A DNA stretch of 64,000 bases from the NCBI RefSeq assembly GCF_005844425.1, contig NZ_SPHL01000001.1, positions 62,001 to 126,000 of the forward strand, read 5' to 3'. The notes beneath the pieces are model-generated. The model did not search any database and had not been told where the DNA came from. It saw only the letters and a list, made by a program, of their open reading frames with translations. Position numbers and translations under genes: made by a program. Origin of the DNA: Anaerofustis stercorihominis. GTDB lineage: Bacteria; Bacillota; Clostridia; Eubacteriales; Anaerofustaceae. Positions 30,990 to 41,187 of the stretch are shown here, piece after piece; the stretch's first letter is position 1, and each line of letters begins with the position of its first letter.

Positions 30990-30995
30990 TTATGC

Positions 30996-31115
30996 GGATG
31001 GTATTCTTTTGAAACTATACCGAGAAAAATATTAATAGTCTTCAATCTACCTAATTGCTATAAAGCTTTTATCGAAAGAAAGAGACTTTTGACTATCAAA
31101 AGGAAGAAAAGAAGA
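30996..31115 (+). promoter_or_regulatory. Structured leader of the pantothenate operon
   Basis: GGTAT/ATACC (31000-31004 and 31017-31021) forms a first hairpin. CTTTTGA/TCAAAAG (31086-31092 and 31096-31102) forms a second that overlaps the AGGAAG ribosome site at 31101-31106. ATAGTC at 31035-31040 can instead pair with GACTAT at 31091-31096, which would break the second hairpin. A switch that opens or hides the start of panG is plausible. Firmicute panB operons can carry the pan RNA motif, but I cannot confirm a match. Confidence 0.5.
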
Positions 31116-39037: not shown

Positions 39038-39067
39038 AAAACAGCACTTTTAAGGTGCTGTTTTTTT
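39037..39067 (+). terminator. Terminator after rlmB
   Basis: AAAACAGCAC and GTGCTGTTTT pair, with further T residues after. Confidence 0.9.
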
Positions 39068-39086
39068 ATAATATATTGCTAACTTA

Positions 39087-39115
39087 TGGACTTAAACAAT
39101 ATAAAATGATAGAAT
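39087..39115 (+). promoter_or_regulatory. Promoter before the leader ORF
   Basis: TGGACT at 39087-39092 and TAGAAT at 39110-39115 are 17 bases apart. The transcript would start near 39122, 32 bases before the leader ORF, and carry a 160-base leader before the transporter gene. Confidence 0.7.
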
Positions 39116-39153
39116 AGTCTAAATATAATTATGAAAGGAGAATAGAATCAAAA

Positions 39154-39237
39154 ATGAACGATGACGATAGTGACGCGGCGAACAAACCGATACCTCTGAT
39201 AGTGCGTTTTATATATTTTAGATATAAAAAAGAATGA
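39154..39237 (+). CDS. Short leader ORF (27 residues), candidate Mg2+-sensing peptide
   Basis: ATG at 39154 opens a 27-codon frame with GAAAGGAG 13 bases upstream. The peptide begins MNDDDSDAANKPIPLIV, then has an aromatic and basic end (RFIYFRYKKE). Four Asp among residues 3-7 followed by Pro-Ile-Pro recalls MgtL of enterobacteria, whose acidic and proline-rich start destabilises ribosomes at low Mg2+. The codons are GC-richer than the surroundings (GCG GCG, GAC GAT). It lies in the leader of a CNNM/CorC-type cation transporter gene. No alternative RNA stem of note is visible. Function is inference. Confidence 0.5.
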   Translation: MNDDDSDAANKPIPLIVRFIYFRYKKE

Positions 39238-39283
39238 TAGAAATAAATATCGAATAAAAAAAACGTATTTAGGAGGTAAGATT

Positions 39284-40600
39284 ATGAAAAGTTCGATAAT
39301 ATTAATGATTTTATTACAAATTGTTTTAATTGCGTTAAATGCTGTATTTGCCTGTGCTGAAATTGCCGTTATATCCATGAACGATAACAAGCTTGAAAAA
39401 ATGGCGGCAAAAGGAGATAAAAGGGCAATAAGACTTTCAAAATTAACCGAGCAGCCTGCAAGATTTTTAGCAACAATTCAAGTTGCAATTACTCTTTCCG
39501 GATTTTTGGGCAGTGCTTTTGCTGCGGAAAACTTTTCTGATGGGTTGGTTAATTTAGCTGTGAAATTAGGGGTGCCAGTTTCCCCAAGCGTTTTAGATTC
39601 TATCTCTGTAATTTTGATTACAATTATATTGTCTTACGTAACTCTTATTTTTGGTGAGCTTGTTCCAAAAAGAGTTGCTATGAAAAAAGCAGAATCTTTG
39701 GCTCTTGGTATGTCAGGGCTTACATATTCTATTTCAAAGATATTTGCGCCTTTGGTAAGTATGCTTACTGCGTCAACAAACTTTGTTTTAAGGCTTATAG
39801 GTATTGATCCTGAGGAAGAAGACGAAGATGTCAGCGAAGAAGAAATAAGAATGATGGTTGATGTGGGAAGCGAAAAGGGGACTATTGACCATGAAGAAAG
39901 AGAATTCATTCAAAATGTTTTTGAATTTGATGATTTATCTGCTGATGAAATATTAACACATAGAACTGATGTTATTACTCTTGATATGGAAGAAAGTCTT
40001 GAAAAGTGGAAAGAGATTATATTTAATACAAAGCATACTCTTTATCCTGTTTGTGACGGTTCAATAGATAAAATTATTGGAGTTCTTGATTCAAAGAAAT
40101 ATTTTCGTTTGGAAGATAAAAATATTGAAACTATAATAGAAAATACCATGTCAAAAGCATATTATGTTCCTGATACAATAAAAGCAGATGATTTATTCAG
40201 AAATATGAGAAAAACAGGCAATACAATGGCTGTTGTTTTAGATGAGTACGGTGGAACTGCCGGGATAATTACAATAAATGACTTGGTAGAACAGCTTGTT
40301 GGAGACCTTGAAGAAGATAATGAGATTGTAAAAATAGATGATGTAACATGTAAAGTAAAGGGAATTGCCTCTTTAGACGAGCTTTCAAAACAAATGGGTG
40401 TATCATTATCTACCGAAGAATACGACACAATCGGAGGGCTAATATTCCATGTTCTTCAAAGTATTCCGGAAAAAGGAGAAAATATTGAATTTGATTTTGA
40501 AGGAATAAAAGTAATGGATGTTAAAATATATGACCATAAAGTAGTAAGTGCGGTTGTAAAGAAAAATTCACCGAATGAAGAAGATAAAGATAATGAATAA
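39284..40600 (+). CDS. CNNM/CorC (HlyC) family membrane protein with DUF21 and CBS pair
   Basis: This 438-residue protein has an N-terminal DUF21 membrane domain with about four helices (1-150; NAVFACAEIAVISMND, ARFLATIQVAITLSGFLGSAF, ELVPKRVAMKKAE). A CBS pair follows at about 205-325 (ADEILTHRTDVITLDM, AVVLDEYGGTAGIITINDLVE), and a C-terminal CorC_HlyC domain ends the protein. Relatives such as CNNM, CorC and MpfA move or regulate Mg2+ and are sometimes labelled haemolysins. RBS TAGGAGGTAAG is strong. Ion specificity here is by family only. Confidence 0.9.
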   Translation: MKSSIILMILLQIVLIALNAVFACAEIAVISMNDNKLEKMAAKGDKRAIRLSKLTEQPARFLATIQVAITLSGFLGSAFAAENFSDGLVNLAVKLGVPVSPSVLDSISVILITIILSYVTLIFGELVPKRVAMKKAESLALGMSGLTYSISKIFAPLVSMLTASTNFVLRLIGIDPEEEDEDVSEEEIRMMVDVGSEKGTIDHEEREFIQNVFEFDDLSADEILTHRTDVITLDMEESLEKWKEIIFNTKHTLYPVCDGSIDKIIGVLDSKKYFRLEDKNIETIIENTMSKAYYVPDTIKADDLFRNMRKTGNTMAVVLDEYGGTAGIITINDLVEQLVGDLEEDNEIVKIDDVTCKVKGIASLDELSKQMGVSLSTEEYDTIGGLIFHVLQSIPEKGENIEFDFEGIKVMDVKIYDHKVVSAVVKKNSPNEEDKDNE

Positions 40601-40603
40601 ATT

Positions 40604-40632
40604 AAAGACTCTAAAAAATTTAGAGTCTTTTT
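40604..40632. terminator. Bidirectional terminator
   Basis: AAAGACTCTAAA and TTTAGAGTCTTT pair around three A residues, with T on the plus side; it ends the transporter gene and the convergent fic remnant. Confidence 0.85.
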
Positions 40633-41187
40633 AAATTATATAATTTGTCATTCCTTCATAGTTAAAGGAAGCATTAATCACTTTTTTATATATTGCATTA
40701 TTATTTATTTCACTGGTTAGTGCATTTTTAATTAAATTCATTATTTCTTTTTCGTTAATAGGTGAGATAATCATTGCATTAAGATATTCATTTTTAGGAA
40801 TTTTATCCCATCTTACAATAACATTTAATTTTTCTTTAAGCATAAAATCAAGCCATATTCTCATTGCTCTGCCGTTTCCTTCTTTAAAAGGATGTGTGAT
40901 ATTCATTTCTATATATTTTTTATTATTTTTTCATAAGAATCAATAGGCATATTATCAATAATTCTTAAACTTTCATTTAAAAATTTTACAGGTGCAAATT
41001 TAAAATTTCCTTTAGATAAATCTACACTGCGTATTTTTCCCGCAAAAGAAAATACATCCATAAACAGATATCTATGGATTTGAATTAATTCGATGGTTTT
41101 ACCGTTTATTTGATTTATTTTTAATGTGTTTTCATAAAGTTGTAATGCTCTTTGTTTTGAAAAAATTTCTTCTTTTTCTATGTTCAT
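40631..41187 (-). pseudogene. Class III-type Fic protein gene broken by a one-base frameshift
   Basis: Two abutting frames on the minus strand (41187-40909 and 40906-40631) together form a Fic AMP-transferase. The first holds the Fic N-terminal helices (IHRYLFMDVFSFAGKIRS, the flap region). The second begins with the catalytic motif THPFKEGNGRAMR, intact. Near the C-terminus SFNYEG matches the inhibitory (S/T)xxxE(G/N) motif of class III Fic proteins. One extra T in the six-T run at 40916-40921 would restore a single frame of about 185 residues (EKIIKKYIEMNITHPF). It could be a real loss, a phase-variable tract, or a sequencing error. Confidence 0.85.

Follow-up and report, generated by a model that had tools for sequence, protein, structure and literature searches.

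A short acidic reading frame in the leader of a CNNM/CorC transporter gene of Anaerofustis stercorihominis probably forms, at a probability of roughly 0.6, part of a ribosome-sensing leader-peptide switch. A ribosome that survives the acidic start of this upstream ORF (uORF) would turn the CNNM gene on, and the copy in the window (the whole stretch of 64,000 nucleotides analysed here) would do so at the level of translation. The ribosome would then probably serve as a cation gauge that turns on a gene of the exporter type. In structure models, the uORF holds the 5' strand of a structure predicted to silence CNNM. The 27-codon acidic leader ORF of the original prediction is present at 39154-39237 on the plus strand (MNDDDSDAANKPIPLIVRFIYFRYKKE, starting MNDDDSDAANKPIP...), ahead of a gene of the DUF21-CBS-CorC type, and a gap of 46 nt separates it from the CNNM ATG. 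Judged from its sequence features, namely its own Shine-Dalgarno sequence (SD), the coding selection in its homologues, its position before CNNM and its overlap with a putative controlling RNA structure, it qualifies as a candidate leader-peptide regulator.

The gene upstream, an rRNA methyltransferase gene of the rlmB type, has its own terminator-like hairpin, recognized by direct reading at 39040-39069 of the plus strand (AACAGCAC...GTGCTGTTTTTTT), so that CNNM appears to lie on its own transcript and the leader of about 160 nt would be that of CNNM. A promoter-like site with the predicted spacing of 17 was found at 39087-39115 on the plus strand (TGGACT-17-TAGAAT, a 9/12 match with an extended -10, TG before the -10), but such sites occur at chance density in the AT-rich window DNA (29 versus 24.6 expected), and the site alone is not above chance. 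The SD of the leader ORF (AAAGGAG, 39134-39140, plus strand) stands at a long spacing of 12 nt from the ATG in the GGAGG register. The median spacing was also 12 for homologous uORFs, 8 for CNNM starts and 7 for control genes, and the long spacing suggests weak initiation at the uORF. Codons 3-7 (D D D S D; 39160-39174, plus strand) are the proposed site of ribosome drop-off or slowing, by analogy with known acidic leaders (PMC11282234, PMC8092293). Among the 9 SD-preceded short ORFs that start in gaps of the window, the leader ORF alone has at least 4 acidic residues at positions 2-11. The GC-rich codons that had been remarked on in this AT-rich DNA are there: codons 1-17 are 49% GC versus 30% for the window, and the leader uses rare codons (GCG GCG, CCG, CTG, GTG and CGT, each accounting for 1-10% of the usage of its own amino acid). 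The peptide had no match in Pfam or PHROGs. Searches of Rfam gave no match in the window leader at gathering or permissive thresholds and none in 20 homologous leaders, and the M-box model (RF00380) matched neither the leader nor any other part of the genome. Elsewhere in the window, a pan-motif RNA (RF01749, 45.2 bits) was found at 30995-31092, directly 5' of an apparent panE-like/panB/panC/panD/coaBC run.

The downstream gene (39284-40600, plus strand) encodes a CNNM/CorC-family membrane protein, the sole CNNM of the genome. The CNNM transmembrane domain (DUF21), the CBS pair and the CorC_HlyC domain all scored above the Pfam cut-offs (PF01595, PF00571, PF03471), and the closest solved structure was that of the archaeal CorB 7m1u (E=6e-41). 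The best curated match was the polyamine exporter PaeA, at 234 of 500 bits and thus well below the cut-off. Polyamines also stabilise ribosomes, so either Mg2+ or a polyamine as substrate would be compatible with the switch. The strong ribosome site assigned to this gene in the original prediction proved to be an SD of the sequence AGGAGG (39271-39276, plus strand; spacing 7), which is predicted to be masked in the folded leader. The nearest relatives of the protein are 55-66% identical. On the CNNM tree the window protein clusters with Lachnospiraceae and not with its own order, in a group with 97% support that also holds the proteins of leaders L057, L078 and L135. The two genus mates of the window genome have no close CNNM; together with the clustering, this suggests that the gene and its leader may share one acquisition. 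On the minus strand at 40631-41187, two adjoining ORFs resemble one Fic-domain protein (HPFKEGNGRAMRIW) that a frame break has divided.

At the DNA level, searching the genus, family and order with the window leader returned only the self-match, as the genus mates carry no close CNNM, and homologues were reached via the protein. By a looser, hand-checked call, an acidic and often proline-containing uORF stands before 74 of the 85 CNNM orthologues at 50% identity or more, before 4/14 at 38-50% identity, and before none of 6 paralogues under 38%. These uORFs are preceded by an SD, have an acidic, often proline-bearing start, and lie 130-260 nt upstream of CNNM. They occur in Lachnospiraceae, Oscillospiraceae, Butyricicoccaceae, Syntrophomonadaceae, Thermacetogenium and members of the order of the window genome; the CNNM copies of Lentisphaerota, Kiritimatiellota and one alphaproteobacterium had no acidic uORF. 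Samples of two further Lachnospiraceae genera had the uORF in 20/20 readable loci, with new starts such as MDGDPDTCSC, MEDSDDSDS, MDDDPANNC, MDDSPENYP and MDPDVSWTVD. With fixed criteria, at least 3 acidic residues at positions 2-11 were found at 63/105 CNNM loci as compared with 9/183 other genes of the same loci, and at least 4 at 35/105 CNNM loci, as compared with 3/183 other genes and 4/2100 shuffled CNNM leaders. Residues 2-11 of the uORF contain a mean of 4.4 D, E or P. The acidic and proline chemistry is kept while the sequence shifts (MDDGDS, MEEEPDS, MDDEPGE, MDDSPFPE, MDGDPDT, MDPDVSW), as would be expected if the property and not the exact peptide matters. The uORFs vary in length from 16 to 60 residues and widely in their C-terminus and sequence, and their 3' half is set by the terminator described below. 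In the Blautia-group leaders L146-L160, the uORFs share an ending of the form PC-x-IM-x-R (CCATGT..ATTATGAATAGATAACGG) just 5' of the terminator.

The uORFs evolve as coding sequence. The test for this used alignable leader pairs of less than 35% divergence which have no member in common, yet are not fully independent on the tree; it rests on homologous leaders, the window leader itself having no close relative. In 24 disjoint pairs, the differences at the three codon positions numbered 83, 91 and 155 (third position 155/329, p=1.6e-7). Codons with a single change comprised 77 synonymous and 88 nonsynonymous cases, where the neutral synonymous share would be 21% (p=4.6e-13), giving an omega-like ratio of 0.31. 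Closest-first pairing agreed (p=1.3e-4 and 2e-8), and the signal was weaker (p=0.018) under less strict pairing, which let in leaders that align poorly. The frame is kept, and the start codons are ATG in 86, GTG in 8 and TTG in 3 cases. The original prediction had proposed selection on the peptide, had put forward the codon substitution pattern as a check, and had named the lack of a conserved peptide, or frameshifts and stop changes in the ORF, as evidence against it; the peptide is conserved before CNNM orthologues across Clostridia, its substitution pattern is that of a coding sequence, and few stop or frame losses were seen.

The same data bear on the idea that the leader is a riboswitch-like RNA element in which the ORF is incidental. 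Such an element would account for the GC-rich island within the AT-rich leader and for the strong stems. It is quite improbable, given a coding pattern at p=5e-13, the retention of start codon, SD and open frame through divergent sequences, and the absence of an Rfam family match. Codon usage in the uORFs is peculiar in a way that would also suit an RNA element. In the D-x-D-S class (L057-L136, codons 5-6), the serine codon after GAC is almost always AGT, in spite of codon bias, and AGT persists even in GC-rich hosts, in which one would expect mostly AGC. Likewise, Asp codons in the uORFs end in C in 160/221 cases versus 113 expected from the gene itself, and in AT-rich hosts in 20/42 versus 8.6. 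No common RNA pairing partner was found for the conserved GAC-AGT nucleotides in the 39 leaders searched, which argues against an RNA element. The near-invariant AGT after GAC points to a constraint at the level of RNA or decoding that our best model does not explain. Both the long SD spacing and GAC-AGT look selected, which suggests a constraint on decoding or initiation.

Selection at the peptide level would equally be found if the uORF product were itself functional, as a small membrane or regulatory protein that is co-produced with CNNM. We regard this as very improbable, since length, C-terminus and sequence vary so widely, the terminator determines the 3' half and is crossed by the frame in some leaders, and the peptide belongs to no recognized family.

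In most relatives the putative silencing structure is an intrinsic terminator, often nested in an SD-masking helix. An acidic uORF together with an intrinsic terminator of at least -10 kcal/mol was present in 65 relatives. In 63 of them the uORF ends within 6 nt of the terminator 5' arm or reaches into it, whereas the other frames read from the same start do so in 30/65 and 9/65. These alternative frames were also considered as the conserved product and were rejected, being far more often closed before the terminator. The uORF stop codon typically falls inside the terminator loop, so a ribosome completing the uORF would block the hairpin; in some leaders the uORF frame reads through the terminator, and in L101 the uORF extends across the CNNM start. 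An anti-Shine-Dalgarno sequence, CCUCC, read as Pro-Pro or Pro-Leu, is found in the middle of the uORF in relatives. The CNNM SD is predicted to be at least 80% paired with the uORF in 17/48 distinct leaders, the window included, versus 1.0 expected from dinucleotide-shuffled uORFs.

The overlap of uORF and terminator resembles that of trp-type attenuators, and Asp, Ser, Asn and Pro are abundant in the leaders, with rare codons in the window leader, so that a classical amino-acid attenuator sensing a lack of charged tRNA-Asp (or tRNA for Asn, Ser or Pro) instead of cations has to be considered. It is unlikely: D, E and P are interchangeable among the leaders (MEEEPDS, MDDEPGE, MDPDVS, MESPDPYP), so no one amino acid is needed; the downstream gene belongs to a cation transporter family and not to a biosynthetic pathway; and no alternating antiterminator that would sequester the terminator 5' arm had a consistent partner in the 39 leaders searched.

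The window copy has no terminator, and its uORF region alone folds worse than shuffled sequences. It does contain a masking helix, in which 39191-39210 pairs with 39260-39278, just beyond the acidic codons. The original prediction had taken it as support that no strong RNA stem competes in the leader. This is incorrect, as the helix pairs the CNNM SD with uORF codons 13-15 at a probability of 0.9-1.0, and the stem is now part of the proposed mechanism. The pairing strand is an anti-Shine-Dalgarno sequence, UACCUCU, in these codons (I-P-L; 39191-39197, plus strand), which pairs with 39272-39278 at a probability of 0.88-1.0. It is followed by the 5' arm of an inner helix inside the uORF (AGUGCGUUUU, 39201-39210, plus strand), predicted to pair with a 3' arm at 39260-39269 on the same strand (AAAACGUAUU). 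Equal masking of the SD was reached in 2/500 dinucleotide shuffles of the window leader. The Blautia leaders L078, L135 and L145 show an SD mask like that of the window, and no terminator was found in L078 and L135.

In a footprint model of the window leader, the SD is open in 2% with a ribosome at codon 5, in 87% at codon 10, in 44-52% at codons 15-20, and in 2% at the stop codon. A ribosome parked on the stop codon thus leaves the helix shut in the model, so opening would have to come during passage. The acidic codons are codons 3-7, ahead of the masking strand, whose first codon is 13, so ribosomes lost at the acidic codons would, in the model, never open the SD.

We propose that at low Mg2+, or with a low pool of ribosome-stabilising cations including polyamines, ribosomes would drop off or slow down on the N-terminal D, E and P codons. 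The drop-off would be intrinsic ribosome destabilisation (IRD), as in MgtL. With the ribosome lost early, the downstream strand would stay unoccupied, the silencing structure would form and the exporter would be off; at high Mg2+, ribosomes would pass and displace the 5' strand, and the exporter would be on. Three outputs (terminator, SD mask and overlap with the CNNM start) would follow one logic, a completed uORF promoting CNNM. The sign, in which completed translation means ON, is taken from the anatomy, the silencing strand lying in the uORF 3' of the acidic codons, and Mg2+ is proposed as the signal by analogy, from the peptide chemistry and the role of CNNM/CorC proteins in high-Mg2+ tolerance. 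IRD at acidic or proline-containing starts is established in E. coli and Salmonella (PMC11282234; PMC8092293), and the acidic codons of mgtQ control a masked ribosome binding site in Salmonella (PMC8092293). High Mg2+ raises the expression of Salmonella CorC-family genes, for which leader or IRD control has been suggested (PMC12421838), and S. aureus requires MpfA to tolerate high Mg2+ (PMC5122736).

The opposite sign, with early ribosome loss exposing an antiterminator or ribosome site and CNNM on at low Mg2+, is the direction in which MgtL and MgtQ run with similar acidic starts (PMC8092293). It is rather improbable for these leaders, because the silencing strand lies 3' of the acidic codons in the same uORF, where ribosome loss would free it to silence, because the terminator 5' arm has no consistent alternative pairing in the 39 leaders searched, and because CNNM/MpfA proteins are needed in high Mg2+ (PMC5122736). 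The reversed logic that the original prediction had mentioned as a possibility is the one which the modelled anatomy favours, a completed uORF being predicted to open the terminator, the CNNM ribosome site or both. In regard to the ribosome-sensing switch itself, Bacillus RNA polymerase outruns ribosomes ('runaway transcription'); this would weaken the terminator version of the mechanism, and would leave the translational version of the window unaffected.

There is perhaps an even chance that the Clostridia carry an ancient family of acidic, proline-containing ribosome-stability sensors, in which completed translation opens both the terminator and the anti-SD helix and the exporter is on at high Mg2+ (or Mg2+ plus polyamines). 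Known Mg2+ sensors (M-box, PhoPQ, MgtL) serve uptake, to our knowledge. The ribosome is the cell's largest Mg2+ store, and if the proposal is true, it gauges cation sufficiency across gut Clostridia by its survival of an acidic start. We know of no IRD-based regulator outside Proteobacteria, and the Clostridia family, if true, would be the first; IRD regulation would be extended to Gram-positive bacteria by convergence and with its output reversed, a mirror image of MgtL. No earlier description of a Clostridia CNNM leader peptide was found in the literature searched, most subscription journals being outside its reach. The kind of regulation, leader-peptide attenuation by ribosome destabilisation, is known; new here are the clade, the target, the reversed predicted sign and the combined terminator and anti-SD output.

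The closest comparison is with MgtL, the mgtA leader of E. coli and Salmonella, which is likewise a short uORF with an acidic, proline-containing start before a Mg2+-related transporter, and is proposed to sense through the survival of the ribosome (PMC11282234). Like MgtL, the window leader and its homologues carry acidic residues, prolines or both among their first ten codons. They do not share a Rho-dependent terminator or an mgtA-type importer downstream, and there is no sequence homology between MgtL and the Clostridia leader peptides. MgtL controls an importer by Rho-dependent termination and induces it at low Mg2+, whereas leaders of the window type precede an exporter-type gene, have an intrinsic terminator, a masked SD or both, and are predicted to give induction at high Mg2+. 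MgtQ, with 8 codons located between mgtC and mgtB of Salmonella, is similar in its acidic codons, masked ribosome site and translational output (PMC8092293); it lies inside an operon, and loss of the ribosome promotes expression of the importer MgtB, while the window leader has the opposite predicted sign and carries its anti-SD within the uORF. In the YoaL-YoaE (MgpA) pair of E. coli and Salmonella, a uORF again precedes a CorC-domain protein and overlaps its start, as in L101; loss of the yoaL start codon lowers expression of the YoaE gene, which is up at high Mg2+ (PMC12421838). YoaL, of 52 residues, differs in its start, which is not acidic, and YoaE is a TerC-CBS-CorC protein and not a CNNM. 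YoaL was considered as a homologue of the Clostridia leaders and rejected on its non-acidic sequence. Finally, ribosome-mediated attenuators of the trp and antibiotic types are similar in that the leader ORF overlaps an intrinsic terminator. The Clostridia leaders differ from these in having no run of a single codon and no antiterminator that could be found in the 39 leaders searched, and the quantity proposed to be sensed is the stability of the ribosome.
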